This document shows, piece by piece, positions 6,372 to 36,052 of a stretch of DNA of 64,000 nt (its first letter is position 1; each line of letters opens with the position of its first letter). This DNA is from Phycisphaerae bacterium (lineage in GTDB: Bacteria > Planctomycetota > Phycisphaerae > Sedimentisphaerales > Anaerobacaceae): contig JAGOLX010000030.1 in the NCBI GenBank assembly GCA_017993835.1, positions 1 to 64,000 of the forward strand, written 5' to 3'. Made by a program: the position numbers and the translations under genes. Under the pieces are notes generated by a model, which worked only from the letters and a program-made list of their open reading frames with translations, did not search any database and was not told the origin of the DNA.

Positions 6372-6372
6372 G

Positions 6373-7716: not shown

Positions 7717-7736
7717 AGAGATCTCGCAAACTGCTT

Positions 7737-7770: not shown

Positions 7771-7831
7771 GTTGTCCTCATGTTCTTCGCAGGACGACAC
7801 TGCCTGCGTAGAGAGTTCGGCAATCCAACTC

Positions 7832-10800
7832 CTACGGCTTGCCGTACGTCCCTTCGCGGATCTTGGTAATTTCTGCCGTAGTGAGGATGTCGCTGAACAC
7901 AACAACCTCATCCATCAGGCCACGCAGGGCTCTGTACCACAAGCCGTCCACTCCGCCGACGAAGAATGCGGCGTTGTTTGTAGCCAGCGCCGAGAAGTCC
8001 GCCTTCGTCGCCTTCGTTCCAAGGATCGCGCCGGCGGCAGCGTCCCAGATATCGATCGTGCCTGTGTGGGAGGCGTCATCGAAAGTCACAGTAATGTGAT
8101 ACCATTGATCGGACGCAACGCGTGTCGCGTGTGCCAGCCGCTCAGTGCCGATGTTGAGTGCAATCTGCCCATTCGCCTGGCAGGTGATGGCATATCCGTA
8201 GGGACTCACGCCCGAACCCCAATTGCTCTTGGTAACGAGGCCCCAGTAGTTGGTGCTGGTGGGCAGCGTCTCGATGTATGTCCAGAAGCATATGGAGAAC
8301 CTCTTGTTGCTGGTGCCACTTTTGCCCGGGAAGTCCTCGGACATTACTGCATCTGCCAGAGAGAGCGAGGTCCGATTTTCCCAAGTCGTGAACGCCTTGA
8401 AGAACGCGGAAGCCAGACCTTCTTTGAAGTTCGATGTATCCGTGGTCATTGCGATACTTGTCAGAGTATTGGATCCGAGGGTATCAACCGTCAGTGCCCC
8501 TTCCTCGAATCGCCACCAGGCGACCGCATCGGGATCCACGGAGAAATCGTTGCCCGGGAAGGCGGTGCCGTAGGTGGCTACCAGGGTCACACCAGTATAG
8601 GCCTGGTAGCCTCGCAGCATGATGTACCACGTGGCGGCCGCAGGGTCCGTGATTTCCACGGTCTCCGCATTGCCGATCAGGTAGGGCCGATAGTCATAGC
8701 TCGTCAAGGTGGGCTTGGAACCCCTGCGGACGTACAGGTCCGCGTCGCCGGTGCCGCCGGATATCTCGATTGTCAGCGAGTCCTGGCCCGCGGGCACGAC
8801 GATCTTGTAGAACTTCTCACTGCCGGCTGCGCCGGAGATCCCGCTGACGGGCACGCCGTTGTCGAGTTCGATCGCGTCGTCGGAGATCCCGGTGTACGTG
8901 GCCTTCAACGCTACGCCGGTGTACGCCTGGAACCCGCGGAGCATGATGTAGTACGTTCCAGCCGTCGGCGTGTTGATTGTGACCGTTTCCTCGTTGCCGA
9001 TCAGATACGGTCGGTAATCCCAGGTGCTGGTCGTGGGCTTGGCGCCCAGTCGGACGTACAGATCCACGTCGCCGGTGCCGCCGGAGGTGAAGATCACGAG
9101 ACTGGTCTGGCCGGACGGGACGACGATCTTGTAGAAGGTCTCGCTGCTGGCCGCGCCGGCGATCCCGGTGACGGGCACGCCGTTCGTCAGTTCGGTGACC
9201 GTGTCCGGTATGGTGCCGCCGTAGGTCGCCAACAGGGTGACATTGGCGAAGGCGGCGCGCCCGCGGATCATGATGTACCAGATGCCCGCGGTCGGATTGT
9301 TCACGGTGACGGATTCGTTGTTGCCCGTCAGGTACGGACGATAGTCATAGGTTGTTGTGGTCGGCAGCTCGCCGAGTCGGACGTACAGATCGGCGTCGCC
9401 GGTGCCGCCGGACATCTGGATTTCCAGCTTGCTCTGGCCGCTCGGGACCGTGATCTTGTAGTATTTCGCAGTGCCCAGGCTGCCGGAGATTTCGTTGACG
9501 GGGGTGCCGTTCGTGAGCGTTACCACGCTGGCGAGGGCCTGGTAGTCCGCCTTGAGCGTTACGCCGCTGTATGCCGCCGTCCCCTTGAGCATGATGTACC
9601 AGGAGCCTGCCAACGCCGGGCTGCCCATGCTGACGTTCTCGTTGTTGGTCGAGTTGATGGAGGCATAATCGTAACTGGACGGGGTCGGCTTGCTTCCCTG
9701 TTTGATGTACATGTCCGCATTGCCGGTGCCACCGGACATCATAAACAGCATGGAGTCGTACCCTTCGGGCACGTCGATCCGGTAGTACGTGACGCTGTTC
9801 AGGGCGCCGGCGATGCCGGTGACGGCCACGCCGTCCTGAAGGATGATCACGCCGCCGTAGGAGGCGGTCAGCGTCAGGCCGGTGTACGCGCTGTAGCCCC
9901 GGATCATGATGTACCACGTCCCACCGGTCGGCGAGGGGACAGTGACCGTCTCCTCATTGCCGGCCAGGTATGGGCGATAGTCATAGCTGCTCACCGTTGG
10001 GCTCGCTCCGTACTTGACGTACAGATCGGCGTCGCCTGTGCCGCCCGTGATCACGATGGACAGGCTCGTTTGGCCGCTGGGCACCTCGATGCGAAAGAGC
10101 GTTTCGCTGGCCTTCGCGCCGGCGATGCCGGTTACGGAGACGCCGTTCTCGAGGAGCGTGCCGACACCGCCGCCGCCGTAGCTGGCCAGCAGGGTGACGC
10201 CGGAGAACGCATTGAATCCGCGAACCATGATGTACCACGTCGCCCCGGCGGGATTGTTGATGGTCACCGACTCGTTGTTGCCGGACAGGTATGGGCGGTA
10301 GTCGTAGCTGCTCGTCGTGGGCAGGGCGCCCTGTTTGACGTACAGGTCGGCGTCGCCGGTGCCGCCGGAGATGCTGATCTCCAGCTTCGTCTGGGACGCC
10401 GGAACGATGATGCTGAAATACAGCTCGGCGCTGGCGGCCCCGCTCAGCCCGGTGACCGGCACGCTGTTGGTCAGCGTCGTGATGGTCATTGCGGCCGAGT
10501 ACTGGGCCAGAAGGGTCACGTTCGCATAGGCGTTGTAGCCCCTCAGCATGATGTACCAGGTGCCGGCCAGCGGATTGGAGACGGTGACCGTCTCCTCATT
10601 GCCGATCTTGTAGGGTCGGTAGTCGTAGCTGGTGGTCGTAGGCAACGACCCGCGTCGGACGTACAGATCGACGTCGCCGGTGCCGCCGGAGGTGCTGATG
10701 ACCAGTTCGTCCTGCCCGGAGGGGACCGTGATCATGTAGAACTTCTCACTGCCGGCTGCTCCGGAGATCCCAGTGACCGCCACGCCGTTCGTGAGGTTGG

Positions 10801-10888
10801 TCTGGGCGTGAACCACCGAAGCGAACATACCCAGCACTGCGACCAGAACCGCGAGGCTTTTAGCGCTTCTTGTGTTCAAACTGTTCAT
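7832..10888 (-). CDS. Exported surface protein: seven PPC domains plus C-terminal LamG
   Basis: 1018 aa from the ATG at 10888, preceded by GAGAGGAG. Signal peptide at residues 1-29 (ends SVVHAQ). Then seven tandem repeats of about 105 residues, each with the bacterial pre-peptidase C-terminal (PPC) pattern: an opening like LTNGVPVTGISGAAGSE, the core SGGTGDADLYVRRG, a YDYRPY motif, and GTWYIMLRGYxAYxxVTL. The last 230 residues form a LamG/concanavalin-like domain (VAWWRFEEGAL at its start; WYHITVTFDD and LMDEVVVFSDILTTAEI near its end). No catalytic domain is attached. Probably a carbohydrate- or surface-binding protein outside the cell. Repeat 4 is the most diverged (it lacks the YRPY motif). 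Confidence 0.88.
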   Translation of the reverse strand: MNSLNTRSAKSLAVLVAVLGMFASVVHAQTNLTNGVAVTGISGAAGSEKFYMITVPSGQDELVISTSGGTGDVDLYVRRGSLPTTTSYDYRPYKIGNEETVTVSNPLAGTWYIMLRGYNAYANVTLLAQYSAAMTITTLTNSVPVTGLSGAASAELYFSIIVPASQTKLEISISGGTGDADLYVKQGALPTTSSYDYRPYLSGNNESVTINNPAGATWYIMVRGFNAFSGVTLLASYGGGGVGTLLENGVSVTGIAGAKASETLFRIEVPSGQTSLSIVITGGTGDADLYVKYGASPTVSSYDYRPYLAGNEETVTVPSPTGGTWYIMIRGYSAYTGLTLTASYGGVIILQDGVAVTGIAGALNSVTYYRIDVPEGYDSMLFMMSGGTGNADMYIKQGSKPTPSSYDYASINSTNNENVSMGSPALAGSWYIMLKGTAAYSGVTLKADYQALASVVTLTNGTPVNEISGSLGTAKYYKITVPSGQSKLEIQMSGGTGDADLYVRLGELPTTTTYDYRPYLTGNNESVTVNNPTAGIWYIMIRGRAAFANVTLLATYGGTIPDTVTELTNGVPVTGIAGAASSETFYKIVVPSGQTSLVIFTSGGTGDVDLYVRLGAKPTTSTWDYRPYLIGNEETVTINTPTAGTYYIMLRGFQAYTGVALKATYTGISDDAIELDNGVPVSGISGAAGSEKFYKIVVPAGQDSLTIEISGGTGDADLYVRRGSKPTLTSYDYRPYLIGNAETVEITDPAAATWYIMLRGYQAYTGVTLVATYGTAFPGNDFSVDPDAVAWWRFEEGALTVDTLGSNTLTSIAMTTDTSNFKEGLASAFFKAFTTWENRTSLSLADAVMSEDFPGKSGTSNKRFSICFWTYIETLPTSTNYWGLVTKSNWGSGVSPYGYAITCQANGQIALNIGTERLAHATRVASDQWYHITVTFDDASHTGTIDIWDAAAGAILGTKATKADFSALATNNAAFFVGGVDGLWYRALRGLMDEVVVFSDILTTAEITKIREGTYGKP

Positions 10889-11526
10889 TGTGTACTCCTC
10901 TCTACCAAGGGTTCGTACAGGTTCCATGATTCCTGCTCTCAATGTCGGACCGATGCCTTTTCATCATAAGTGCCATATGCGTGCGGATTCATAACGCGAA
11001 TTCCTCAAACTTTCTCCTTCGCGACAGACGGACGGCGGACGCAGATTCCCCGCCGGTGCAGGAACGACCGCGAACCCATTGCCGGTCCGAGAATAGAGAC
11101 GAACGGGGGCTTCTGAGGGCCGGGGCGTCGATGGACTGGATGTTCTGCTAAACAACACATCGCAGAATCTGCGCACCACACAAGCACACGACAACCCCTC
11201 GGGAGATTGAATACCCACCGTCCGGCTGCCCCTTGAATTCCACGCTGGTTGTTTACTGGCGGTAGTGATTATCGCGCCTTGCGACGTGCTTGTCAACCGT
11301 CCGGGCCGCGGAAGCTCTTTTTTTCCCGGAACATCCGTCTGCTCGAACCAAGTCTGATAACCGACGCCCCTCGTCCGGCCCAGGCCTTCTGTGCCGAAAG
11401 GGGTCTGTCAATTTGGCACGAGTCGATCGCGTCTCCGCGCACAAACGACAGTTTGCAGCGTCAAGAACCGTCGCCAGACAACCCTAAGTCATTTTAGAAA
11501 AGGCTCTTACGGCTGAATGGGCGGTC
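10889..11526. other. Gene-free stretch between divergent genes
   Basis: About 640 bases between the PPC/LamG start and the sigma-54 promoter. Short frames on both strands lack ribosome sites and family motifs, so I call no gene. It should hold the promoter of the minus-strand gene and any enhancer site of the sigma-54 promoter, but I cannot point to a clear dyad. Confidence 0.5.
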
Positions 11527-12595: not shown

Positions 12596-12785
12596 GGGCC
12601 GTATGAATCATCCCGAAACGCCTGCCGGGACTGCCGCTCAGCGATTCCTTGACGGTCTTCGTGTGTTCGTCTACAGTGACCGTTCAAGTGTGGGGTCTGA
12701 CGGCTCGCGCGATCGGTTTCTTGCCCTGGTCGCCGGGGTCGTCTGGTTCGGCGGCAAAGGCAAGGGATTCAGGGGTGAATCGGCG

Positions 12786-15700
12786 ATGAAGGCGAATCCA
12801 TCGAGACTTGCGGCGTGCATTCTGGCGTTGGTTTCTTTGTCCGGGCAGGCGGCGACGCATCATAGTGACACCGACTGGTTCCGCGACGCGAAGTACGGCG
12901 TCTTCATGCATTTCCTGCCGGGCGACGCGGCGGGCTTGGTTCGCACAGGCGAGTTCGACGTGGAGCACCTGGCTCGCCAGTTGGAATCCGCAGGGGCGAG
13001 GTACTTTGTCCTGACGCTGGGACAGAACTCCGGCTTCTTCAACTCGCCGAACGCTGCCTACGACCGATGGACAGGCTATGCACCGGGCGAGCGGTGTTCC
13101 ACTCGCGATCTGCCCCTGGATCTGTATCGAGTTCTGAATCCCAAGGGCATCCGCCTGATGCTCTATCTGCCTTGTCAGACTCCGAACGTGGACACCCGCG
13201 CCCAGAGGGCCTTCGGGCTGCCCGAGGGCCAGCGCGACCAGCCGATCAACCTGGAGTTCGCGAAGAAGTGGGCCGAAGTGATCCAGGAGTGGTCCGACCG
13301 CTACGGCAACAAGGTGGCCGGCTGGTGGTTCGATGGCGGCTACAAATGGATCGAGTTCGGCGAAGAGATCGCCCAGGTCTATGCCGCTTCGGTCAAGCAT
13401 GGCAACCCGAACGCCATCGTGACCTTCAATCCCGGCGTCAGTCTGATCCGCCACACGCAGGCGGAGGACTACACGGCGGGGGAGCTGAACGAGCCATTCG
13501 ATGTGCTCCCGGCGTCTCGATGGGTGGACGGTTCCCAGTGGCATGCCCTGACCTATCTCGGCTCGCACTGGTCTGCGCGGGACACGCGATATCCCGCGGA
13601 GCGGTGGGCGAAATGGGTCGGCACGGTTGTGTCCAAGGGTGGCGTCGTCACGCTTGACCTGGGTCCGAACTGGGACCCGCAGGCCGGACCGATCGGCTCG
13701 CTCGCACCGGCGCAGATTGAGCAGGTCCAGGCCATTCAGGCCGCGGTGAAGGCGACGCTTGTTCTGCCCGACTCAGCGGATCGTGCGAATCCCTCCCGTC
13801 CAGCGGTGGAGCTGCGGGCCCGCGACGGCCTAGCGAACTTCTTCTCCAAAGCCAAGGCCGGCGGGAAAGTGACCGTCGCCTACTTTGGCGGCAGCATCAC
13901 CGCCGCCAATGGCTGGCGGCCCCAGACAACCGCCTGGCTTCAGCAGCGACACCCGAAGGCCCAGTTCACGGAGATCAACGCCGCCATCGGCGGCACGGGC
14001 TCGGATCTGGGCGTCTACCGGCTCGGGCGCGACGTGCTCGCGCACCGGCCGGACCTTGTGTTCGTCGAGTTCGCGGTCAACGACGGCGGCGCGCCGCCCG
14101 AGCAGATCTACCGGTGCATGGAGGGCATCGTCCGCCAGATTCGCCGTGCGGATATGGCTACCGACATTTGCTTCGTCTACACGATGCACGACGGGATGCT
14201 CAAGGATCTCGCGGCCGGTCGGCTGGCTCGGTCCGCTTCCGCGATGGAGTTGATCGCGGATCGCTATGGAGTTCCGTCTATCCTTCTTGCGCAGGAAGCG
14301 GCCCGACGGATCAACGCCGGCGAGTGGGTCTTTACGGCGCCAAAGCCCGAGGTCCCTGCCGATCCGAGCAAGGGGACGCTCGCGCGTCCGGCGTTTTCGT
14401 CGGACAGTTGTCATCCTTTTGCGGAAACCGGGCATCGGCTCTATACCGAGGCGATTGCCCGTTCGTTCGAAGCGATGGAGAGTCTCGGAACCGCCGGGGC
14501 GCACTCGCTGCCGACGCCGTTCACGCCGGACAACCACGAAGCCGCCAAACTCATTCCGCTGACTGGCGCCATGCTGGGTGATGGCTGGCGGGCACTCGAC
14601 CCTCAGACGGACTCTCTTGCACGGGATTTCTCGAATCGGCTGCCTGCCATGTGGTGTGCGGACAAACCCGGCGCGACGCTGAGTTTCACGTTTCACGGGC
14701 GTGCGGCGGCAATCTACGACCTGCTCGGTCCCGACGGGGGCGAACTGGAGGTGGTCGTAGACGACCAGCCCGCCAGGCCGGTCCGACGGTTCGACGCTTA
14801 CTGCACGTATCACCGCCTGGGCACGACCTCGCTGCTGTCGCAGACGCAGGCGGGGGACCACACCGTGACGGTGCGTCTGACCGGGAACTCCTTCGACAAG
14901 GCTGAGATCCTCAGCCGCAACAAGAACAAGATCGACGATCCCACCCGCTATGCGCCGTTGCGATGGTACGCCGGGGCGCTGTTGATCGACGGGGCATTGA
15001 AGTCCGATGGCGCCGCAAGCCTCCCGAAGCGCCTTACCAGGGCACAGAGTTTCCTCGGAATCCACTATGATTTCCACGCCGGGCCGGACTGCAACGCGAT
15101 CGGCAAGAACACGACCCGCGCGATGATCGAGAACATCATTGACCAGGTCCATCCCGACTACATCCAAACCGACTGCAAAGGCCATCCCGGGCTGTCGAGT
15201 TACCCGACGAACGTCGGCAATCGGGCGCCGGGCTTCGTCGGCGACCCGCTGCGTCTGTGGCGCCAGGTGACCGCCGAACGGGGCGTCGCACTCTATATGC
15301 ACTATTCCGGTGTGTGGGACTCCGAAGCCATCCGTCTCCATCCCGACTGGGGTGTCGTCAGCGCCGACGGCAAGACGAACGGCAACGCCACGTCGCGTTT
15401 CGGTCCGTACGCCGACACTCTGATGATTCCGCAGTTGCGCGAGCTGGCGGGCGACTACCGCGTGGACGGGGTCTGGGTGGACGGCGATTGCTGGGCCTCT
15501 GTGCCCGACTACAGCGAGCGGGCGTTGAAGGCGTTCCGCGAGGCGACCGGCGTCGAGGATGTCCCTCGCAAGCCGGGGGACCCGCACTGGTTCGAGTTCC
15601 TCCAATTCCACCGCGAGGCCTTCCGCCAGTACGTGCGTCACTACATCGCGGAAGTGAAGAAGACGAATCCCGAGTTTCAGATATGCAGCAACTGGGCATT

Positions 15701-16958
15701 CTCCGATCACATGCCGGAGCCGGTCAGTGCGCCGGTCGATTTCCTCTCGGGCGACTACTCGCCGGATGACAGCGTCAACTCCGCCCGCCTGTCGGGACGG
15801 TACCTCGCCCACCAGGGAGTGCCCTGGGACCTGATGGCGTGGAGCTTCTCGCGCACGCCGGGCAAGGACGGGAAGAACCAGAAGAGCGTGGTCCAGTTGC
15901 AGCGGGAGGCCGCGGTGGTCCTCGCGCTCGGCGGCGGCTTCCAGGCGTACTTCACCCAGAAGCGGGATGGCTCGATCCGCGAGGAAGGAGTTCCTGTGAT
16001 GGCGGAGGTGGCCCAGTTCTGTCGGGCACGACAGGCCCTTTGTCACCATGCGACGCAGGTACCGCAGGTGGCGATGCTGTACTCGACGGCTGCCCACTTT
16101 CGCCGGAACAACGGCCTCTTCCACCGCGACTTGGGCCGAATGAGCGGCACGCTGCAGGCCCTCTTGGAAGGCGGGCAATCCGTGGACCTCGTCGGCGAGC
16201 ATCACTTGACCGGTCGCATGGCGGACTATCCGCTGATCGTGGTGCCCGAGTGGGATTACCTCGAAGCTCAGTTCAGGGACGAGCTGATCGCATACGTGAA
16301 AGCCGGCGGCAACTTGCTGCTCAGCGGACCCGGGACAGCGGCCCTGTTCCAGGCAGAACTGGGCGCTGCGTTGGAGGGCGAGCCACAGTCGGCGAAAGAC
16401 TGCCGGCTTGCACACGCCGGCCAGGTGGCTGCCATCCGGGGCCAGGTGCAGTCGGTGAAGCTGGGACCGAAGTGCAAGACGTTCGGCCGGATTCAAATGG
16501 GCGATGGAGCCGATTCACCCTCGCAGCCAGCCGCGTCCGTCACCGAGTTCGGGCAGGGCAAGATCGCGGCGATCTACTTCACGTTCGGCCAAGGCTACGT
16601 CGATGGGAGGACCGACCTGGCCCGGCAATTCCTGGATGATCTGGTGCGTGAGTTGTTCCCGAAGCCGATGGTGGAGGTGAAGGGCTCGCACGAAGTGGAC
16701 GTAGTGGTCAATCAGATTGGCGGCAAGCTGGCGGTGAACCTCGTCAGCACTGCCGGGCCCCATCGGACCGAGCCGATTGTGGAGTCTATCCCACCCGTCG
16801 GCCCGCTCGACGTGACCATTCGTCAGGTTGCGAAACCGACGAAGATCATGCTGGAACCTGCTGGAGTCTCGCTGCCTTTCGAGCACCATGACGGCGAGAT
16901 CCACCTCACCGTCCCTCGCGTGGACATCCACGAAATCGTGGTCGTTGAGGGCCTTTGA
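12786..16958 (+). CDS. Exported three-module enzyme: GH29-like, SGNH esterase, GHL6/trimerisation-like
   Basis: 1390 aa from the ATG at 12786 (AGGGGTGA upstream); the frame is open further upstream but without signals. Signal peptide at about 1-25. Module 1 (about 27-340) resembles alpha-L-fucosidase family GH29: WFRDAKYGVFMHFLPGD, and VAGWWFDGG with D183 as the probable nucleophile. Module 2 (about 358-565) is an SGNH/GDSL hydrolase: YFGGSIT with S370, GGTGSD, EFAVND, and the D540-S-C-H543 dyad. Module 3 (about 755-1390) resembles hypothetical glycosyl hydrolase family 6 with a beta-galactosidase-trimerisation-like part (YVKAGGNLLLSGPG near 1170). The order suggests removal of fucose-like sugars and ester groups from one polymer. 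Substrate is inferred only. Confidence 0.82.
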   Translation: MKANPSRLAACILALVSLSGQAATHHSDTDWFRDAKYGVFMHFLPGDAAGLVRTGEFDVEHLARQLESAGARYFVLTLGQNSGFFNSPNAAYDRWTGYAPGERCSTRDLPLDLYRVLNPKGIRLMLYLPCQTPNVDTRAQRAFGLPEGQRDQPINLEFAKKWAEVIQEWSDRYGNKVAGWWFDGGYKWIEFGEEIAQVYAASVKHGNPNAIVTFNPGVSLIRHTQAEDYTAGELNEPFDVLPASRWVDGSQWHALTYLGSHWSARDTRYPAERWAKWVGTVVSKGGVVTLDLGPNWDPQAGPIGSLAPAQIEQVQAIQAAVKATLVLPDSADRANPSRPAVELRARDGLANFFSKAKAGGKVTVAYFGGSITAANGWRPQTTAWLQQRHPKAQFTEINAAIGGTGSDLGVYRLGRDVLAHRPDLVFVEFAVNDGGAPPEQIYRCMEGIVRQIRRADMATDICFVYTMHDGMLKDLAAGRLARSASAMELIADRYGVPSILLAQEAARRINAGEWVFTAPKPEVPADPSKGTLARPAFSSDSCHPFAETGHRLYTEAIARSFEAMESLGTAGAHSLPTPFTPDNHEAAKLIPLTGAMLGDGWRALDPQTDSLARDFSNRLPAMWCADKPGATLSFTFHGRAAAIYDLLGPDGGELEVVVDDQPARPVRRFDAYCTYHRLGTTSLLSQTQAGDHTVTVRLTGNSFDKAEILSRNKNKIDDPTRYAPLRWYAGALLIDGALKSDGAASLPKRLTRAQSFLGIHYDFHAGPDCNAIGKNTTRAMIENIIDQVHPDYIQTDCKGHPGLSSYPTNVGNRAPGFVGDPLRLWRQVTAERGVALYMHYSGVWDSEAIRLHPDWGVVSADGKTNGNATSRFGPYADTLMIPQLRELAGDYRVDGVWVDGDCWASVPDYSERALKAFREATGVEDVPRKPGDPHWFEFLQFHREAFRQYVRHYIAEVKKTNPEFQICSNWAFSDHMPEPVSAPVDFLSGDYSPDDSVNSARLSGRYLAHQGVPWDLMAWSFSRTPGKDGKNQKSVVQLQREAAVVLALGGGFQAYFTQKRDGSIREEGVPVMAEVAQFCRARQALCHHATQVPQVAMLYSTAAHFRRNNGLFHRDLGRMSGTLQALLEGGQSVDLVGEHHLTGRMADYPLIVVPEWDYLEAQFRDELIAYVKAGGNLLLSGPGTAALFQAELGAALEGEPQSAKDCRLAHAGQVAAIRGQVQSVKLGPKCKTFGRIQMGDGADSPSQPAASVTEFGQGKIAAIYFTFGQGYVDGRTDLARQFLDDLVRELFPKPMVEVKGSHEVDVVVNQIGGKLAVNLVSTAGPHRTEPIVESIPPVGPLDVTIRQVAKPTKIMLEPAGVSLPFEHHDGEIHLTVPRVDIHEIVVVEGL

Positions 16959-18747: not shown

Positions 18748-20427
18748 CTATCGACCTCGCCATTCGCCCAGGATGCGTTTGAGGCGGCGCATGATGCCGT
18801 CTTTTCCCAGCTCGACCGGCGTGGTGGATGTGGCTCGCAGTTTCTCCAGGGATGCGGCGTTCTGAGCCGCGCGGGTCGCCGCCAGGTCCGAGAGGACCTG
18901 GGGGATTTCCTCCCGCAAAGACAGCAGGCGAGAAAAAGCCGCCCGGTTGAATTCCAGCAGCTCGCAATCGGTGGTTGCCGTCATGGTCGCGGTTCGCGGC
19001 AGGCCGGTCAGCAGACTCATTTCACCGAAGAGGGCGCCGGGACGCAGTTCGAACTCGATGGGTTTGGCCATGTCGGAGTTCGTGATGGTTCCTCGCACGG
19101 CGCCTTTCACCAGGACATAGAACGATTCCCCGTCGTCGTTCTGGTGCATCAGGGTTTCCCCATGCGTGAACAGGATGCGTTTCACGTCGCGAGCCACCGC
19201 CTTCATGTCGTCGCGACTGAGCATGCAGACGCCCTGGGCGTCCGCCACAAGCTTGCGTCCGAAGTCGCTGCGGACCAGATCGTCCACGATGGCCTCGATC
19301 TCGGACGCCAGCGGCGTTTCGATCTTCAGCGTGCGGGCCGTCTCCATGAAGCTGTCCAGTAGCCGGCCGCTCATGGGGAACGGGATCTCGATCCCGCGCC
19401 GGGTGAACTTGTACCAGATCATCCGCATCACGTCGCCCTCGATGGGCGTGCGCAGTTCGTATTGTCTCGTCCAGAAACGCAGCACGTAGTCGATGCAAAA
19501 ATCCTTGAATCCGGTCACGTAGGCATCCGGGGCCGGGTGCTTCTCAATCTTGGGCACGCAGTCAGCAGCTTCGAGCAACGCTTCGATGACATCGCCCGGC
19601 GCGTCGCCGTAGCTGGCCGAGATGGGAACCATATGCCGGCGCAGCTTCGTGGGCGAGGAAAAATTACGGATCGTCGTATCGGCGAGCTTGCCATTGGGGA
19701 CGATGACAATGTGTCCTCCTGTGGTGCGAAGACGCGTCTCCCGCCAGCTCACCAGGATCACCTGCCCGATGGTGTCATCCACCTCGATCCAGTCACCCAC
19801 GGACATGGATCGGCAGGCGTGCAGGGACATGCCGGCCAAGAGATTGCCCAGGACCCCCTGCATGGCGAAACCGATGACGCCGGTGACGATGGCCGTCGAG
19901 GTCAGCAGCACGCCGATCTGCTTGCCCATCTGGTATTTCAGGAGTATGAACACGATGCCCACGATGATCGCCAGGCGGAGCATGCCTCGCGTCAGCCGGC
20001 TCAACGGACACGGGCGTCCCATCTGTGCGAACCCCTCGACGAAGAGCCCTTCACCAAGCCTGACGATGCCGTACAGACCCCAGAACAACAGCCAGGGATG
20101 ATGGAACTCCGACCATCTTGGTTGGCCGCGATTGACCACATAGATCAGTGGAGTCGAGATCGCCAGAACGAGGATGGGGACCACGACGTAGTTCGCCAGC
20201 ACGCCTATGAACTGCCGTCCTGTGTGGCGCCTCGCATCCACGCCATCCGAGGGGGTATAGCGACGACGAAGCGGCGTTGCCAGGATGTACGCCAGGAGCA
20301 GCACCATCAGGCCGGTCGCGACGTCGCGAACGTAGGGCAACGTCTCCCGCAAAGGCTTGGGAGCGGCTGCCGTCGCCAGCAGGAGGGTCTGAATGTGCGT
20401 GGTCAGCGATTGGAGATACTCGAGCAT
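18748..20427 (-). CDS. MscS-family channel with C-terminal cyclic-nucleotide-binding domain
   Basis: 559 aa. Four or more membrane helices lie in the first 200 residues, then the MscS pore-lining pattern IVTGVIGFAMQGVLGNLLAG, the beta-domain GDWIEVDDTIGQV and VPNGKL. The C-terminus (about 400-530) is a CNB domain: GESFYVLVKGAVRG and FGEMSLLTGLPRTATMTA, which keeps the Glu and Arg of the phosphate-binding cassette. Proteins of this layout (bCNG channels) are described as gated mainly by cyclic nucleotide rather than tension. It starts 9 bases after the MBL gene ends, downstream of an adenylate cyclase, so its ligand is probably cAMP. Confidence 0.92.
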   Translation of the reverse strand: MLEYLQSLTTHIQTLLLATAAAPKPLRETLPYVRDVATGLMVLLLAYILATPLRRRYTPSDGVDARRHTGRQFIGVLANYVVVPILVLAISTPLIYVVNRGQPRWSEFHHPWLLFWGLYGIVRLGEGLFVEGFAQMGRPCPLSRLTRGMLRLAIIVGIVFILLKYQMGKQIGVLLTSTAIVTGVIGFAMQGVLGNLLAGMSLHACRSMSVGDWIEVDDTIGQVILVSWRETRLRTTGGHIVIVPNGKLADTTIRNFSSPTKLRRHMVPISASYGDAPGDVIEALLEAADCVPKIEKHPAPDAYVTGFKDFCIDYVLRFWTRQYELRTPIEGDVMRMIWYKFTRRGIEIPFPMSGRLLDSFMETARTLKIETPLASEIEAIVDDLVRSDFGRKLVADAQGVCMLSRDDMKAVARDVKRILFTHGETLMHQNDDGESFYVLVKGAVRGTITNSDMAKPIEFELRPGALFGEMSLLTGLPRTATMTATTDCELLEFNRAAFSRLLSLREEIPQVLSDLAATRAAQNAASLEKLRATSTTPVELGKDGIMRRLKRILGEWRGR

Positions 20428-20436
20428 AGCGATTCC

Positions 20437-21279
20437 TCAGTCACAGATCGTCAACCATTGTCCGGCCCGCGCGAGCAGGGCGCCGGGCGAGAGTCTTTGT
20501 ACCTGCTCCTCCACGGCCAGCAACGTCTTGTCGTCGGCATTCGGCGCATGGTGGCCGAGGAGCACGCGGGGGATGCCCGCGGCCTCGGCGATTGCCAGGT
20601 CGTCCTCCCGGCAACTGTGCCCCCACCCGGCGAAGGCGTCCTTTTGCGCCTCGCCGAAGTGGGCGTCGATGATGAGCATGTCCGCGGGTCTCGGGGTCTC
20701 GCACATCGCCATAAAGGCCTTCTCGTCGGCTGGCGTCCGTTTGCGCCATTCGATGTCCGTGGCGAAGACGACCGACGCCTTGCCGCCGGCGTCGTCAATG
20801 CGATAGGCCAGACACCCGCCGGGATGGGGTACGGGACACCCTTGGATTCGCAGACCCCCGACGCGGATTCCCGCCGGGGGGAATTCGGCAAACTCAAGCC
20901 GGGCGCTCGTTTGCTTCCACGAGATCGGCCAGTACGGCTGGGCCAGCAGGCCGGTCACGGCGCTGCGGACGCCGCCATCGGCGAAGGTCGGACCGGCGAA
21001 GAGGAAGGACCATTGTCTCTGATAGAGCAACGGATTCATCGTCAGGCCGGCCAGATGGTCCAGGTGATAGTGCGAGAACAACACCGTCACTTGGCCGGGC
21101 TGTGTCTGGGCCAGTTGTGCCGCGACCGCGCGCATCCCGGTGCCCGCGTCGAGGACGAGTCGTTCGCCGCCCGAGCCGACGAGCAGCAGGGAGGTTGTGT
21201 CGCCGCCGAATTCATCGAAGCCGGCCCCGAGGGCGGGCTGACTTCCCCGCATTCCGCCGATGAACAGCCGCATGGTCAT
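20437..21279 (-). CDS. MBL-fold metallo-hydrolase, possible cyclic-nucleotide phosphodiesterase
   Basis: 280 aa. The ATG at 21279 overlaps the cyclase stop in ATGA, indicating translational coupling; the frame upstream of this lies in the cyclase gene. Metallo-beta-lactamase motifs: H70-Y-H72-L-D74-H75, H152 in PHPGG, D175 in FATD, H221 in GWGHS and H243/H244. This set would bind two metals. The opening GGMRGSQPALG and LDAGTG are common in the RNase Z / class II cAMP phosphodiesterase-like branch. Context between a cyclase and a CNB channel suggests it hydrolyses the cyclic nucleotide, but phosphodiesterase activity is inference. Confidence 0.85.
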   Translation of the reverse strand: MTMRLFIGGMRGSQPALGAGFDEFGGDTTSLLLVGSGGERLVLDAGTGMRAVAAQLAQTQPGQVTVLFSHYHLDHLAGLTMNPLLYQRQWSFLFAGPTFADGGVRSAVTGLLAQPYWPISWKQTSARLEFAEFPPAGIRVGGLRIQGCPVPHPGGCLAYRIDDAGGKASVVFATDIEWRKRTPADEKAFMAMCETPRPADMLIIDAHFGEAQKDAFAGWGHSCREDDLAIAEAAGIPRVLLGHHAPNADDKTLLAVEEQVQRLSPGALLARAGQWLTICD

Positions 21280-23429
21280 TTCTCCGTAAGCCCCCAGACC
21301 CCGTCCCAGGCAGCCGGAGGATGGGTGGCCAGGTTGGCACAACGTTGAGCGTAATGTCTCGCCGGCGGATCGTCGGGTAGTTGCTCGAAGATCGCCTTGG
21401 CCCCTGCGAAGTCGCCTTCGCGGAAGCGAGCCAGCCCGGCGGCGAACGTCTCCCAACCGGCGGGCGCCGGGTCCGGCGCGAATCCCGTCAGCTCGAAGAC
21501 TTCGACCGCGGTTTTGCGACCGACCACGCGGAGGTCTGCCAGCTTGCGACCTCGGAACTCGGACGACGCCTGTTGCCACGTGCTGCCCGAGACCATGGTT
21601 TCGGTCCCGAAGGCCTTGTTGGCGCCCTCCAGGCGGGAAGCCAGATTCGCGGCGTCGCCGAGGATGGTGTAGTTGAACCGTTTGCGCGACCCCATATTGC
21701 CGACGACGACGTCGCCGGTGTTGAGTCCCACCCTCATCCTCAGGGTGGCCCCGGTCCGCTGCAGAAAACCATCTCGCAGCTCGGCGAGCCGGCGTTGGCA
21801 TCGCATCGCGGCGCGGCAGGCTCGGACCGCATGGTCCGCCTGGCCCAGCGGGGCGTTCCAGAACGCGATAATCGCGTCGCCCTCATACTTGTCGAGCGTG
21901 CCGCCTTCCTCCATGATGATGTCCGTCATCTCGGTGAGGTAGTCGTTCAGCAGGGTGGTCAGCTCGACCGGGCCCAGCTTCTCGGAGAAGGTCGAGAAGC
22001 CCGCGAGGTCGGTGAACATGATCGTCAGCTCTCGCTTCTCGCCGCCGAGTTGGAGGTGTTTGGGGTTGCGGATGATCCTCTCGATCACATCGCCGCTGAG
22101 GTAGTGACGGAACGCCTGTTTGATGAAGGCTTTCTGTCGTCCCTCCGTCCAGTAGTTCGCGGCCAGCGCGCCGACCATGCCCAGCGTCGACCCACCTGCC
22201 TGGGCAACGACCGGCCACCAGAACCCTTTGGCGTAGGCGGCGAATCCGATCGCCAGCGGCGCCGCGAGCCAGAGGAGGGCCAGCGGTCCCGCCTGCCACC
22301 ATTTGCCGCCGTAGGTCAGGGAGATCGTGGCGGCCAGGGCTGCGAGCAACACGCCGGGAATGACCAGCGATGAAGGCGACTCGGCAATGAAGGAGTTGGT
22401 GAGCAGGTTATCGACGAACGTTGCGTGCAGGACGACGCCGGGACACTTCGGATTGACCGGGGTGGGTCGCAGGTCCAGCAGACCCGGCGCACTGTACCCG
22501 ACAAAGACATAGCAGTCCTTGAATACCTCAGGCGACAACACGGGAGCCTCGCCCGATTGCAGACGCAGTTCCGATTGGATAACCGCGGCGAGCGAGAACG
22601 CCTCCGGCAAGCCCTCTCGACCGCGGAATCGCAGAATCGTCCTGCCTCGCCGGTCGAGAGAGACGACCTTGTCGCCCACGTGCAGTTGCCGGCCGGACAC
22701 GGTGACCCTGGGCGGGGCCACCACAGTGGCTGCGGGGGCATTGGGGTCCTGCGAGGCGTTGGGATCGGTCTGGGAAGGAGGGCATAGCCAAGCCGCCAGT
22801 CCGAGCGTCGGGACCGCGACCCCGTCGAATCGTCGGAAGGTCTCGATCCGACGGAAGACGCCATCCGGATCGGCCGAGCCGCTGACATGGCCCAGTGCCG
22901 CCGCACCAGCGGCTATCTCCGGAACCGGGAACGACAAGTTGACGTCCTGGGCCATGGCGGGCAGGTCAACCTGGAGATCCGGACGCGGCACGTAGTCCGG
23001 CCACGCCTTTCGCATCCCTCCCGCCATGACCGCCATGACCGTGGGTGTGCCGGTTCGCAGACCCTGTCCCAGCGCCTCGTCGTCGGCCACTCCCCGCGAG
23101 GACGGTTCGGTGAAGAGCACGTCGATGGCGAGGGCCCTGGCGCCGGCTCTCGCACAGAACGCGGGGATCACGCTGTACACCTCGCGCGGCCAGGGCCAGC
23201 CCCAATCCGGGTTCTCCTGCTGCGCCCAGTCCAGACTGGCCCGGTCCAGCAGGATCAGCTTTACCCTGGACGAGGGAGTCTCTCGCTGCGAGAAGTACTT
23301 CGCTCGCCAGGTCCACGTGGGAGCTTCCCAGGAATCGAGCCAGCCGACTCGCCACAGCAACAGCGCCATGACGCCGGCAACCAAGCCGATCCCGGTCCCT
23401 CGCAGACACTTGCTGTCGAGCTTGAACAT
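21276..23429 (-). CDS. CHASE2-domain class III adenylate/guanylate cyclase
   Basis: 717 aa from the ATG at 23429 (GGAAGAA upstream). One membrane helix (about 13-30), an extracytoplasmic CHASE2 sensor domain (about 35-345), three membrane helices (about 350-435), then a class III cyclase domain (about 470-690). Catalytic signature: metal Asp in FTDLAGFS, substrate Lys plus metal Asp in DKYEGDAIIAFWNAP, and the transition-state pair Asn/Arg in GDAANLASRLE. The Lys favours ATP over GTP. It signals an outside stimulus as cAMP. First gene of the MBL and MscS-CNB unit. Confidence 0.93.
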   Translation of the reverse strand: MFKLDSKCLRGTGIGLVAGVMALLLWRVGWLDSWEAPTWTWRAKYFSQRETPSSRVKLILLDRASLDWAQQENPDWGWPWPREVYSVIPAFCARAGARALAIDVLFTEPSSRGVADDEALGQGLRTGTPTVMAVMAGGMRKAWPDYVPRPDLQVDLPAMAQDVNLSFPVPEIAAGAAALGHVSGSADPDGVFRRIETFRRFDGVAVPTLGLAAWLCPPSQTDPNASQDPNAPAATVVAPPRVTVSGRQLHVGDKVVSLDRRGRTILRFRGREGLPEAFSLAAVIQSELRLQSGEAPVLSPEVFKDCYVFVGYSAPGLLDLRPTPVNPKCPGVVLHATFVDNLLTNSFIAESPSSLVIPGVLLAALAATISLTYGGKWWQAGPLALLWLAAPLAIGFAAYAKGFWWPVVAQAGGSTLGMVGALAANYWTEGRQKAFIKQAFRHYLSGDVIERIIRNPKHLQLGGEKRELTIMFTDLAGFSTFSEKLGPVELTTLLNDYLTEMTDIIMEEGGTLDKYEGDAIIAFWNAPLGQADHAVRACRAAMRCQRRLAELRDGFLQRTGATLRMRVGLNTGDVVVGNMGSRKRFNYTILGDAANLASRLEGANKAFGTETMVSGSTWQQASSEFRGRKLADLRVVGRKTAVEVFELTGFAPDPAPAGWETFAAGLARFREGDFAGAKAIFEQLPDDPPARHYAQRCANLATHPPAAWDGVWGLTEK

Positions 23430-23543: not shown

Positions 23544-24470
23544 CTACTTTCCGGCTATGATGGATTGCATGGCCGCGGCGAACCGCTGTTGTCGAACCGT
23601 GTTGATGGGCGACCCGGTGTCGACCACATCCCCACGAAGCGATTCCACCCGACTGGACGCGGAAGGATGCGTCTTGGCGAACCCGAGTCCGCCGGCGTGG
23701 CTCAGCCGCTGATCCATCCGCTGGAGCATGGTGATAATCGCGGCTTCCGGATAGCCGGCGCGGCGCAGGATTTCCACCGCTCCGAGGTCCGCACGGAGTT
23801 CCTGTTTTCGCGAGTAGCCGCCGACCGTCAAGGTCTTGACCACGTCGCCGACTGATCCTTCAAATTCCTCGGTCAGCGCGGCCAGCTCTTCGCCGCCCAG
23901 TTGCTTGGCGGTCTCGGCGCCGATGATCGTGAAGGCCTCCGTCAGACGACCCTGTTTGATCGCGCCGAGTCCGTGCTTCATGGTGACGTGGCAGATCTCA
24001 TGCGCCAGCACCGCGGCCAGCTCGTCTTCGTTCTGGCAGCATCGGACCATGCCTCGCGTGACCAGGATCAGCCCGCCCGGCGCCGCGAAGGCGTTGATCT
24101 CATCCGAGTCCAGCAGGACGAAGTGATAGCCGCCGAAGGTCTCGGGGCGGTCGGAGAAGATCGCGAGCGACTGGCCCAGCAGATTCAGGTAGGCGTTGGC
24201 TTCGGGCTGGTCCAGCGGGGGGTAGCTCTGGAACACCGTGGCCGCTACGGCTCGCCCGATATAGTACTCCTGTTCCGGCGTCAGGTCCTGAAACGTCTTG
24301 TCGACCGCCTGGGCTCCGCGTTTGACGGATTCTGCTTCGCTGTCGGTCAGCACGCCCGTGGCCCTGCCCACTTCCGCGCCCACATCGCCCACAGTCTCGC
24401 ACCCGCAGAACAGCAGTGCGATCGGCAGGCTCACCAGGACGCTCATTGCCAGCCAGTATCTCCCGTTCAT
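23544..24470 (-). CDS. M48-family metalloprotease, probable lipoprotein
   Basis: 308 aa. Hydrophobic N-terminus ending LLFCGC, where C24 may be lipidated. Catalytic zinc motif HEICH at residues 157-161 (HExxH form), preceded by NAFAAPGGLILVTRG, which is conserved in the BepA/LoiP-type M48 group. A downstream RKQELRADLGAVEIL supplies the third zinc ligand Glu. Role: probable envelope protein quality control. Its ATG overlaps the stop of the SH3-like gene in ATGA, with GGAGG upstream, so the two are translationally coupled. Confidence 0.9.
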   Translation of the reverse strand: MNGRYWLAMSVLVSLPIALLFCGCETVGDVGAEVGRATGVLTDSEAESVKRGAQAVDKTFQDLTPEQEYYIGRAVAATVFQSYPPLDQPEANAYLNLLGQSLAIFSDRPETFGGYHFVLLDSDEINAFAAPGGLILVTRGMVRCCQNEDELAAVLAHEICHVTMKHGLGAIKQGRLTEAFTIIGAETAKQLGGEELAALTEEFEGSVGDVVKTLTVGGYSRKQELRADLGAVEILRRAGYPEAAIITMLQRMDQRLSHAGGLGFAKTHPSASSRVESLRGDVVDTGSPINTVRQQRFAAAMQSIIAGK

Positions 24471-24931
24471 TGGGCACCTCCCTGCAGGCTGCCCTGCGCC
24501 CGGAATGCCTCGATCTGGGCGGGGTCCACCGCGAACTTCGACATGCGGTCCACCCAGGTGTAGTCCAGCTTCCCGTCCGCCTTCATCTTGCTCTCGACCT
24601 GTTCGTTGAAGCCGAAGCCCGCCAGGGAGGTTTCATCGGAGGAGACGCCCGTGGCGGCATCGCTAGTCCCTGCGCTCATGACGACTTTCTTCTTGGTGAG
24701 CGTTGACTCGTGCAGCCAGCCGGTGGCGCCGTTGGGCAGGGTCACCGGATACCAGCCTTTCTGCAGCGTTCCCGTCTGAACCGATGAGCCGTATGCGACG
24801 TCGGCGACGACTTTGCCCAGTTGAGAGGGGGTCGCTCGGACCTTGGCATTGCGCACCTGCACGTTCAGTGTCCCTGCGAGTGCTGTGCCGGCACAGATCG
24901 CCAGCAGCACTGCAACAACTCTGATCCTCAT
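24467..24931 (-). CDS. Exported bacterial SH3-like protein
   Basis: 154 aa from the ATG at 24931 (AAGGGAG five bases upstream). Signal peptide at 1-20 (MRIRVVAVLLAICAGTALAG). An SH3b-like domain spans about 22-85: VQVRNAKVRATPSQLGKVV, a central YGSSVQTG and the closing GWYPVTLPNGATGWLHES. A short C-terminal tail follows (about 95-154). Probably binds a cell-wall or protein partner and works with the coupled M48 protease. Confidence 0.82.
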   Translation of the reverse strand: MRIRVVAVLLAICAGTALAGTLNVQVRNAKVRATPSQLGKVVADVAYGSSVQTGTLQKGWYPVTLPNGATGWLHESTLTKKKVVMSAGTSDAATGVSSDETSLAGFGFNEQVESKMKADGKLDYTWVDRMSKFAVDPAQIEAFRAQGSLQGGAQ

Positions 24932-33630: not shown

Positions 33631-34236
33631 ATGCAGAAGAAAGTGATCGTGATGGGTATTGTGGCTGGCGTTCTGGCCTTGGTCGCCGGCGGGTTGTGCC
33701 TGGCTCAGCCGCCGCAGGGTGGTGGACAGGGGGGACCCGGCTTCGGCGGTCCCGGCGGGAACTTCGATCCGGCTCAGATGCGTCAGCGAATGATGGAACG
33801 CTGGAAGGAACAGCTCGGCGCCGATGATGACGCCTGGAAGGTAATCGAGCCTCGGCTCACGAAGGTCATGGAGATCAATCGCCAGACGATGGTCGGCGGC
33901 ATGGGCGGCATGTTCGGCATGAGAGGCATGAGAGGCATGAGAGGCCAGGGCGGTCCCGGCGGCCAGCAGGGTCGGGGTGGTCCGCAGGGCGACAGGCCTC
34001 GCTTCCCCGGCGACGAGAACCGCGAGCCCTCGGCTGTAGAAAAGGCCCAGGAGGCCTTGGAGACCACGCTGGACAACGAGTCTGCCTCGGCCGACACAAT
34101 CAAGCAGCAGCTCACGGCGCTGCGTCAGGCCCGCGAGAAGGCCAAGCAGGAGCTGGCGGCTGCCCAGCAGAGCCTGCGGGAGATCCTCACCGTCCGGCAG
34201 GAAGCCCTCCTGGTTCTCACTGGAATGCTGAACTAA
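33631..34236 (+). CDS. Exported Spy/CpxP-like Gly-Met-rich protein heading the type II secretion operon
   Basis: 201 aa; ATG at 33631 with AAAGGAG upstream. Signal peptide at 1-26 (ends GLCLAQ). Residues about 26-50 are Gly/Pro rich, then a helix MRQRMMERWKEQLGADDDAW, a low-complexity block of Gly, Met and Arg (about 88-130), and a C-terminal coiled-coil-like helix (about 135-200) with Gln/Glu/Ala heptads. Similar in style to the Spy/CpxP-like protein of the ECF unit 1.7 kb away. Its stop is 16 bases before gspE, so it is probably part of that transcript. Confidence 0.7.
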   Translation: MQKKVIVMGIVAGVLALVAGGLCLAQPPQGGGQGGPGFGGPGGNFDPAQMRQRMMERWKEQLGADDDAWKVIEPRLTKVMEINRQTMVGGMGGMFGMRGMRGMRGQGGPGGQQGRGGPQGDRPRFPGDENREPSAVEKAQEALETTLDNESASADTIKQQLTALRQAREKAKQELAAAQQSLREILTVRQEALLVLTGMLN

Positions 34237-34252
34237 GGTAACGGCAGAACTG

Positions 34253-35986
34253 ATGAATCCTATCGTACACAGAATGCTCGATCAGGGTGTGATTGATGAA
34301 TCCGCGGCCCGGGGAATCAGCGGCTTGCTCGCCGAGGGCGAGCCGCCGACCCGGGCCTTCGCGGCCTGCGGCGTGGCCAGCGAGCCGTTGCTGCGGTTCC
34401 TGGCCCGCGATCTCGGACTGGCCTACGTGGAACTCGAAGGGCGGACGTTCACCCGGGAGTTCCTCACCCAGTTCCCCGCCCGCATCCTCCTGGACAAGCA
34501 CATCATGCCCGTTCAGGGCGACAACGGCGATCTGCTCGCGGTCACGAGCGATCCATTCGACACGTCGAGTGTCGATGAGCTGCGCCTGGCGACGGGACGC
34601 GACTATCAGGTCGCGCTGGCGCCTCTGGCGGAGATCGACCGATGCATCAAGAAGTACCTGGGCGTCGGCGCCGACACGGTTCAGTCGATGATCTCGGAGG
34701 CCGGCGACAACGGCCTGCAGGTCATTGACACGGACTCGGACGACGATATGGATTTAACGGAGGCCGCGGAAGGGGCCTCCATCATCCGATTCGTCAACCA
34801 GATTTTGACCGAAGCGATCGAACTGCGAGCGACGGACGTGCACATCGAGCCGTTCGAGGAGAGCCTGCGGGTCCGCTATCGAATCGATGGCGTCCTCCAG
34901 GAAGCATCCCTCGCGGCCGAAGTCAAGCAGTTCCAGGCGGCCATCGTCTCGCGTCTGAAGATTCTCGCCAAGCTGGACATCGCGGAGAAACGTGTGCCGC
35001 AGGACGGGCGCATCAAGATCGTCATCTCCGGTCGCGAGATCGACGTTCGTGTCTCCGTGATCCCGATGATCTACGGCGAAGCGGTCGTGCTCCGTCTGCT
35101 GGACCGATCCAACGTCCTGTTGGGCCTGGACAAGCTGGGGATGTCCGCCCGCGACCTGAAGATCATGGAGATGATCCTGGAAAGGCCGCATGGGATCATC
35201 CTGGTGACCGGACCGACCGGTAGCGGCAAGACGACCAGCCTCTACGCGGCCCTCTCCCACATCAACGACATTCAGCGCAAGATCATCACGATCGAGGACC
35301 CCATCGAGTACCAGCTCCACGGGATCAACCAGATCCAGGTCTCGCGCAAGGCCGGACTGACGTTCGCCAGCGGTCTTCGCTCCATTCTGCGTCACGACCC
35401 CGACGTGGTCCTGGTCGGTGAGATTCGCGATTCGGAGACTGCGGAGATCGCGATCCAGGCGTCCCTGACCGGGCACCTGGTCTTCTCGACCCTGCACACG
35501 AACGACGCGCCGAGCGCCCTGACTCGGCTGGTCGATATGAAGATTGAACCGTATCTGGTGGCCTCCTCGCTGGAGGCGGTCCTGGCGCAGCGGCTCATCC
35601 GCACGATCTGCAAGCACTGCAGGGAACCGTTGACCGCCAGCGAAATGGCGCCCCTGAAGCACCGGTTCGGCGACCGGCTGCCCGATGTCCTGTACAAGGG
35701 ACGAGGATGCCGGGAGTGCCAGGGGACGGGGTATCGCGGGCGGATCGGCATCTTCGAGATGATGGTGGTCACCGACGATGTTCGCTCTTTGATCATCGAG
35801 AATGCCTCGGCCCCCGAGCTGCGGAAAATGGCGGTGAAACACGGCATGACCAGCCTCCGCGATGACGGGTTCCGCCACCTGTCCGGCGGGCGGTCCACGG
35901 TCGAGGAGATCCTCCGCGTGACGAAGGACGAGGTGTTCGAGATGAACGGGCTGCTCGGCGCGGAGCCGCCCAAGGAACGCGAGTGA
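34253..35986 (+). CDS. gspE: Type II secretion / type IV pilus assembly ATPase GspE
   Basis: 577 aa. N-terminal MshEN-like domain (about 1-150), then the secretion ATPase core: Walker A GPTGSGKT at 320-327, Asp box IITIEDPIEYQ, Walker B DPDVVLVGEIRD and His box GHLVFSTLHTNDAPSA. Zinc-binding cysteines occur as C453-KH-C456 and C486-RE-C489. The protein powers pseudopilus assembly at the inner membrane. First core gene of the gspEFGHIJKLMCD order. Confidence 0.95.
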   Translation: MNPIVHRMLDQGVIDESAARGISGLLAEGEPPTRAFAACGVASEPLLRFLARDLGLAYVELEGRTFTREFLTQFPARILLDKHIMPVQGDNGDLLAVTSDPFDTSSVDELRLATGRDYQVALAPLAEIDRCIKKYLGVGADTVQSMISEAGDNGLQVIDTDSDDDMDLTEAAEGASIIRFVNQILTEAIELRATDVHIEPFEESLRVRYRIDGVLQEASLAAEVKQFQAAIVSRLKILAKLDIAEKRVPQDGRIKIVISGREIDVRVSVIPMIYGEAVVLRLLDRSNVLLGLDKLGMSARDLKIMEMILERPHGIILVTGPTGSGKTTSLYAALSHINDIQRKIITIEDPIEYQLHGINQIQVSRKAGLTFASGLRSILRHDPDVVLVGEIRDSETAEIAIQASLTGHLVFSTLHTNDAPSALTRLVDMKIEPYLVASSLEAVLAQRLIRTICKHCREPLTASEMAPLKHRFGDRLPDVLYKGRGCRECQGTGYRGRIGIFEMMVVTDDVRSLIIENASAPELRKMAVKHGMTSLRDDGFRHLSGGRSTVEEILRVTKDEVFEMNGLLGAEPPKERE

Positions 35987-36052
35987 TTGTCGACGCCTGA
36001 TCTGCGATTCGTCCAATCGACAATCAACCTTCCAGGTTCAGACTGAGATCCT

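Follow-up and report, generated by a model that had tools for sequence, protein, structure and literature searches.

bCNG channels belong to the MscS superfamily and carry, after the MscS pore and the beta domain, a cyclic-nucleotide-binding (CNB) domain at the C terminus. CNB channels are established in bacteria; to our knowledge, the native source of their ligand and their purpose have been unclear so far. A CHASE2 sensor is joined to a class III cyclase in CyaD1, CyaD2, and CyaK of Sinorhizobium meliloti, in which the output is the CRP-type regulator Clr. In this species, the envelope accessory protein NsrA feeds CHASE2 (PMC13001267). YhfI is a phosphodiesterase with a strong preference for cAMP/cGMP (PMC9117128); YhfI, Rv1339, and C. 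glutamicum CpdA form a phosphodiesterase class with a [T/S]HxHxDH motif (PMC9293780). Pycsar, taken together with phage Apyc1, comprises a class III cyclase, a CNB-containing membrane effector, and a metallo-beta-lactamase (MBL) nuclease that removes the messenger. In this study, we analysed an operon in a 64,000-nucleotide stretch of DNA from a Phycisphaerae bacterium (the whole stretch is hereafter called the window). Its products probably make up a self-contained circuit in which cyclic AMP is coupled to a membrane channel.

Five genes, all on the minus strand, encode in 5' to 3' order an SH3 protein, an M48 lipoprotein protease, a CHASE2 cyclase, an MBL hydrolase, and an MscS-CNB channel (Table 1). 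The cyclase-MBL-channel part runs end to end from 23429 to 18748. Direct reading of the DNA places the cyclase stop over the MBL start in an ATGA at 21279-21276 and shows the channel ATG following the MBL stop after a gap of 9 bases (20436-20428). Another ATGA, at 24470-24467, overlaps the M48 start with the SH3 stop. Ribosome-binding sites precede the SH3 ATG at 24931 (AGGGAG) and the cyclase start at 23429 (AGGAAG). Scanning for promoters and terminators gave results no better than those of shuffles. The preliminary description had reported three nearly abutting genes on one strand, which the translations, Pfam, and the DNA junctions bear out. Its three-gene linkage stands, but its unit size does not: the SH3 and M48 genes, co-directional and immediately upstream of the cyclase, are part of the same conserved operon, and the triad as a complete unit is ruled out. 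In homologous loci, the SH3 gene occupies the matching position.

Table 1. Coordinates of the operon genes and their features in the window.
Feature	Position	Strand	Basis and remarks
Gene 1, SH3_3-domain protein of 154 aa, secreted; N terminus resembles a signal peptide	24467..24931	-	SH3_3 2.5e-7; SH3 at about 24698-24850
Gene 2, M48 metallopeptidase lipoprotein	23544..24470	-	Pfam 2.6e-32
M48 lipobox Cys24	24401-24399	-	Kept in 46/46 homologues covering the position
M48 HExxH	24002-23988	-	HExxH and Glu224 invariant, n=47 homologues
Gene 3, predicted CHASE2 class III adenylate cyclase, 717 aa	21276..23429	-	Extracytoplasmic CHASE2, transmembrane segments, cyclase domain
CHASE2 sensor domain, residues 20-360	22350..23372	-	PF05226, E 1.7e-40
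Cyclase catalytic domain	21507..22034	-	PF00211 (Guanylate_cyc) 1.2e-20, above cut-off
Gene 4, hydrolase of MBL fold; predicted cyclic-nucleotide phosphodiesterase of the YhfI/Rv1339 type (atypical class II)	20437..21279	-	Pfam, AF2 model, Foldseek
MBL metal motif HYHLDH, residues 70-75, within SHYHLDH	21055..21072	-	Fits the published [T/S]HxHxDH signature
Further MBL metal ligands	His152 20826-20824; Asp175 20757-20755; His243 20553-20551	-	Sequence comparison
Gene 5, channel of the MscS family, 559 aa, CNB domain at the C terminus	18748..20427	-	Pfam
Predicted pore helix, residues 172-204, contains TSTAIVTGVIGFAMQGVLGNLLAGMSLHA	19816..19914	-	Near-invariant in 20 homologues; helix in a low-confidence model
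CNB domain	18922..19170	-	PF00027 1e-20
Phosphate-binding cassette GALFGEMSLLTGLPRTAT, Glu469 and Arg478	about 19038-18985	-	Sequence comparison

The five-gene order and strand recur in Planctomycetota, Verrucomicrobiota, and Latescibacterota. Because it is conserved across three phyla, the arrangement lies far beyond chance; the linkage is real and old, and the check for conserved linkage in related genomes, set beforehand, held. Among close homologues whose contigs allow the test, the cyclase adjoins the MBL gene in 15/15 loci of Planctomycetota, 23/25 of Verrucomicrobiota, and 17/18 of Latescibacterota. This genome and most of its planctomycete relatives have the ATGA overlap between the two genes. 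The channel adjoins the MBL gene in 15/15, 10/23, and 17/17 testable loci of these phyla, respectively, and is the least constant member of the operon. In the 13 of 23 Verrucomicrobiota loci in which it has no place next to the MBL gene, the cyclase-MBL pair mostly stays; hence, cAMP there would need a different target or one located elsewhere. A CNB scan of the channel-less loci found a CNB-DUF1003 membrane protein adjoining the MBL in one locus, which speaks for the cAMP circuit, and the downstream neighbours checked in others looked unrelated. A universal swap to another cyclic-nucleotide effector in such loci was not found. Within the host's family, the operon-type cyclase occurs in 8 genomes and the channel in all 8, and one further genome has a channel gene in which the contig breaks off (Fisher p 3.5e-9, uncorrected for relatedness). 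Cyclase, MBL, and channel show correlated pairwise distances (r 0.91-0.93). Genes for MlaD and TPR proteins lie upstream in several Verrucomicrobiota. MBL homologues that adjoin no cyclase also exist.

The CHASE2 domain of the cyclase scores 139.6 bits against a curated cut-off of 26.3. The catalytic residues reported earlier are all in place: Asp474 and Asp518 for metal binding, Asn595 and Arg599 for the transition state, and Lys514 and Asp592 for adenine selection. All six are identical in 61/61 homologues. The solved structures nearest to the cyclase profile are bacterial adenylate cyclases, and, judged from these residues, the product is predicted to be cAMP.

The HxHxDH metal site claimed for the MBL hydrolase, which matches Lactamase_B_2 at 2.7e-11 in Pfam, is likewise present; the motif, His152, Asp175, His243, and His221 are invariant in those of 74 homologues that cover the respective position. 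The AF2 model (pLDDT 93.4) is nearest to YhfI and BA1088: the top nine Foldseek matches are all BA1088 (1zkp) or YhfI (6kns). Hydrolysis of 3',5'-cAMP is the activity that this likeness suggests. Against the phosphodiesterase family NF041851 of NCBIfam, the protein scores 40.8 bits, far under the curated cut-off of 400. This model is narrow, because none of the proteins in 14 control genomes, B. subtilis and C. glutamicum included, passes the cut-off either. The score against the RNase Z model is comparable (43 bits, cut-off 293), and PhnP-family enzymes, RNase Z, and Apyc1 structures occur among the lower Foldseek matches. The enzyme might thus cleave another phosphodiester (an RNA end, a 2',3'-cyclic nucleotide, or a PhnP-type cyclic ribose phosphate) or a lactone, which would leave the circuit with no dedicated off switch; the RNase Z and PhnP likenesses and the homologues outside cyclase loci fit such a substrate. 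We regard this as unlikely in view of the leading structural matches, the tight co-translation and co-evolution of the MBL with the cyclase, and a stretch of 30 residues, against about 68 in RNase Z, which shows that the tRNA exosite (flexible-arm) insert is lacking. The last point rules out the MBL as the genome's RNase Z, together with another protein of the genome that is a better candidate for this enzyme (63 bits).

A cyclase, a CNB membrane effector, and a built-in Apyc1-like signal eraser would also make a Pycsar-like anti-phage system. Among the PADLOC models, those for PycC hit the cyclase (1.5e-33) and those for PycTIR/effectors the CNB domain (6e-10); Apyc1 was among the structural matches noted above. 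The PADLOC matches, however, cover only the shared generic cyclase and CNB domains. The adenine-type cyclase residues, the envelope genes in the operon, and an MBL nearer YhfI than Apyc1 all argue against defence, as does inheritance by long common descent, with linked distances, in place of a patchy, island-like spread. A defence role is therefore highly improbable.

The MscS-plus-CNB architecture described earlier for the channel agrees with Pfam (MS_channel_2nd 1.3e-17, MS_channel_3rd 2.4e-11, cNMP_binding 1e-20). The structure model is weak (pLDDT 73, pTM 0.37) and too low for a fold search. As the preliminary description stated, the CNB cassette keeps its Glu and Arg; no channel that spans these positions departs from Glu469 and Arg478. 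The position after the Arg, which bears on nucleotide choice, varies among Ser, Thr, Ala, Met, and Gly across channels, a point against the cAMP circuit. Gating by a cyclic nucleotide is predicted from the sequence. A profile search of the source genome (99% complete) for PF00211 (class III cyclase) and PF00027 (CNB) proteins found one of each, both in this operon. Because the sole PF00027 protein is the channel, cAMP would act via membrane conductance and not via a CRP regulator. This inventory of one class III cyclase and one PF00027 receptor suggests that the messenger acts mainly or only through the channel.

The channel could instead be primarily a tension-gated osmotic release valve, in which cAMP only tunes or blocks the pore (e.g., by setting the threshold during envelope stress) and the operon is an osmotic or envelope-stress module. 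The MscS pore, beta, and alpha-beta domains are complete; the SH3 and M48 genes, and MlaD/TPR where they lie upstream, give the channel an envelope setting; a distant MscS homologue in Azospirillum adjoins osmoprotectant (NAGGN) genes; and titles cited in PMC4560390 report mechanosensitive bCNG members. We consider this fairly unlikely, since a CNB cassette invariant over three phyla in the only PF00027 protein found indicates that the nucleotide input matters. The sequence features fit tuning and gating of the channel alike.

In the proposed cAMP circuit, the periplasmic face (CHASE2, with SH3 and M48 as likely envelope accessories) would register an envelope or outside condition, and the cyclase would make cAMP. 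The messenger would bind the CNB domains of the channel and shift its open probability, and the channel would then release or equilibrate ions and solutes. By removing cAMP, the phosphodiesterase, an MBL protein translated together with the cyclase, would reset the channel. We infer the catalysis, the input signal, the gating direction, and the self-limiting dynamics of these steps. The preliminary description had proposed such a cyclase-MBL-channel circuit; the linkage, the likeness of the MBL to YhfI, the adenine-selecting Lys and Asp, the intact CNB domain, and the sole PF00027 protein speak for it. The proposal is borne out in part, with two corrections: the operon has five genes, and the channel is inconstant. 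A broader proposal, for which we see slightly less than an even chance, is that cAMP in this lineage is not a messenger of gene regulation and that the envelope-reading CHASE2 cyclase with its M48/SH3 partners, the phosphodiesterase, and a cAMP-gated MscS channel are the cell's entire cyclic-nucleotide signalling. If true, the system would correspond, in bacteria, to sensory cyclic-nucleotide-gated transduction. The operon would also provide a cAMP pathway from envelope state to membrane conductance that involves neither CRP nor transcription. Maker, eraser, and receptor come from one operon, and no second PF00027 receptor was detected in the genome, which opens the ligand source and purpose of bacterial CNB channels to direct testing in a heterologous host.

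A literature search on CHASE2 with metallo-beta-lactamase, CHASE2 in Planctomycetes, and channel-cyclase operons found no paper describing such an operon, which is a new combination of known parts. The channel resembles bCNG channels in domain order and differs in that its operon also encodes a cyclase and a predicted phosphodiesterase. Its best plasmid homologues among the matches listed share 25-29% identity with it, and the only annotated one of them lies in an osmoprotectant cluster with no adjoining cyclase. The cyclase shares its CHASE2 and class III architecture with CyaD1, CyaD2, and CyaK; the S. meliloti output is Clr, whereas the sole PF00027 protein found here is the channel. The MBL hydrolase has the fold and [S/T]HxHxDH motif of YhfI, Rv1339, and CpdA, the group of its best structural match, but is about 22% identical to them and is coupled to its own cyclase. 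Unlike Pycsar with Apyc1, the operon combines a cyclase with adenine-type residues, an MscS pore, envelope genes, and vertical-looking inheritance, and it carries the eraser in the same operon.

Translation and Pfam annotation confirmed the three minus-strand genes of the preliminary description, which encode a CHASE2 cyclase, an MBL-fold hydrolase, and an MscS-type channel. As described, the cyclase gene ends in an ATGA (21279-21276) that also contains the MBL start codon, and the 9-base spacing between the MBL and channel genes was also present in the window DNA. However, this triad was not the full set, as the SH3 and M48 genes in front of it had been overlooked. These two genes are joined by an ATGA overlap in the window, and the gap between the M48 and cyclase genes is 114 bases, compared with about 10-40 bases in most planctomycete relatives. 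Elsewhere, the window carries a secretion-type gene cluster and a very large two-domain ORF.

Features of the window and of homologous loci (L-numbers) from other genomes
Locus	Feature	Position	Strand	Basis or remark
Window	Secreted SH3-domain protein	24931-24467	minus	In front of M48
Window	M48 lipoprotein metallopeptidase	24470-23544	minus	In front of cyclase
Window	CHASE2 + class III cyclase, 717 aa	within 23429-18748	minus	Translation, Pfam
Window	MBL-fold hydrolase, 280 aa	within 23429-18748	minus	Translation, Pfam
Window	MscS-type channel, C-terminal cyclic-nucleotide-binding (CNB) domain, 559 aa	within 23429-18748	minus	Translation, Pfam
Window	T2SSE, T2SSF, PilM-like, and secretin genes	33631-46594	plus	Type II secretion/type IV pilus-like cluster
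Window	Alpha-L-fucosidase and GDSL lipase domains	12603-16958	plus	Joined in one ORF
L121	MlaD-type + TPR genes	1114-2930		Directly upstream of SH3-M48-cyclase-MBL; Pfam
L126	MlaD-type + TPR genes	1081-2906		Directly upstream of SH3-M48-cyclase-MBL; Pfam
L129, L136	MlaD-type + TPR genes			Verrucomicrobiota; same upstream place; similar N termini
L123	CNB-DUF1003 membrane protein	7389-8567	minus	Verrucomicrobiota
L043	Palindrome insert	1902-2039		In MBL gene
L039	Palindrome insert	1440-1577		In cyclase gene
L034	Second MscS-channel start	7979-8200		Behind channel gene
L264	Distant MscS-family homologue	4231-11266		Azospirillum plasmid

Conservation was surveyed by profile searches of whole genomes, fetched regions, and HMM annotation. 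Relatives of the cyclase, MBL, and channel genes co-occurred in the fetched loci, and SH3 and M48 were also present wherever planctomycete contigs extended far enough upstream. Neighbors were counted, uncorrected for genome relatedness, only at loci with an MBL score of at least 260 bits and a contig permitting the test; group labels were taken from MAG records and group searches. The MBL gene had the cyclase beside it at 15/15 loci in Planctomycetota, 23/25 in Verrucomicrobiota, and 17/18 in Latescibacterota, bearing out the linkage anticipated in the preliminary description. For the channel, the counts were 15/15, 10/23, and 17/17, and for M48 plus SH3, 8/8, 17/23, and 12/12, respectively. 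Therefore, cyclase and MBL form the most constant unit; SH3-M48 usually lies upstream, and the channel, a constant neighbor in two of the phyla, is missing from many loci of the third. MBL homologs below about 260 bits mostly lacked an adjoining cyclase. Channel presence required six changes on the cyclase tree, which does not separate gain from loss. Cyclase, MBL, and channel distances were correlated (r 0.91-0.93 overall, 0.93-0.94 within phyla), as would be expected of genes travelling together. In two relatives, an imperfect palindrome (start GAAAAGGGGACATTCT, end AGAATGTCCCCTTTTC) is inserted in frame in two different operon genes, adding peptides that resemble KRGHSPFS...KVECPLF; the insert appears to be a palindromic repeat element that encodes protein.

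The cyclase catalytic residues reported earlier are present: Lys514, Asp592, both metal Asp, Asn595, and Arg599 were identical in 61/61 homologs. As in class III cyclases generally, Lys514 and Asp592 are assigned to adenine selection and the two Asp to metal binding. Solved bacterial adenylate cyclases were the closest matches to the cyclase profile. The genome from which the window comes spans 6.37 Mb at 99% completeness; it encodes a single PF00211 cyclase and a single PF00027 protein, and the operon contains both. Among 60 same-family genomes, eight carry the operon-type cyclase, each as its single PF00211 match, and all eight carry the channel (Fisher's exact p = 3.5e-9, uncorrected for relatedness); a ninth has the channel without the cyclase, on a contig cut inside the channel gene. 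The channel is the sole PF00027 match in eight of these nine genomes, and the remaining one (G1011) has four. This co-occurrence and the inventory, which covered PF00211 cyclases and PF00027 receptors, argue that cAMP here would act mainly on membrane conductance, not via a CRP-type regulator.

The HxHxDH metal site noted in the MBL protein was invariant, together with His152, Asp175, His221, and His243, in 74 homologs where the position was covered. The AlphaFold2 model was good (pLDDT 93.4). Its nearest solved structures were BA1088 and YhfI, followed by RNase Z, a PhnP-family diphosphatase, and yeast PDE1, with Apyc1 further down. YhfI strongly prefers cAMP/cGMP over cCMP/cUMP (PMC9117128). 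That the enzyme acts on another substrate is one of three main rival explanations. The protein did not reach the curated cut-off of the phosphodiesterase model NF041851, but neither did any protein from 14 genomes used as controls, a set that includes B. subtilis and C. glutamicum. Assignment as RNase Z was rejected: a better candidate gene lies elsewhere in the genome, and the exosite insert was judged missing because a 30-residue MBL stretch aligns to about 68 RNase Z residues in the profile alignment.

The channel pore helix and CNB cassette were near-invariant among homologs, and the Glu and Arg described as kept (Glu469 and Arg478) were identical in every channel covering them. The residue after this Arg varies, so cAMP versus cGMP is not readable from that position. 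The whole-channel structure model was poor, and no conclusion rests on it. A second main rival holds that the channel is a tension-gated valve merely tuned by cAMP. One relative has a second, contig-truncated channel start (L034), possibly a tandem duplication; the distant homolog L264 lies between a BLUF-domain gene and NAGGN osmoprotectant genes.

In the most probable mechanism, CHASE2 would be activated by an external or envelope condition, perhaps relayed by M48 and SH3; cAMP would rise, CNB binding would shift the channel, and the MBL enzyme would clear the signal. An envelope protein that feeds CHASE2 cyclases has a precedent in S. meliloti (NsrA; PMC13001267). In several Verrucomicrobiota (L121, L126, L129, and L136 among them), the genes preceding the operon (MlaD-type and TPR) are again envelope-related. 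At L123, where the operon lacks the MscS channel, a CNB-DUF1003 gene convergent with the MBL gene would fit an alternative membrane effector, as a single case. The third rival, a defense role like that of Pycsar, an anti-phage cyclase system, is unlikely because of the adenine-type cyclase residues, the envelope genes, and the inheritance pattern of the operon. No description of this combination was found in a search of the open-access literature. Every operon part belongs to known kinds. The MBL family shows the [T/S]HxHxDH signature of YhfI, Rv1339, and C. glutamicum CpdA, which a published study groups as atypical class II phosphodiesterases (PMC9293780).
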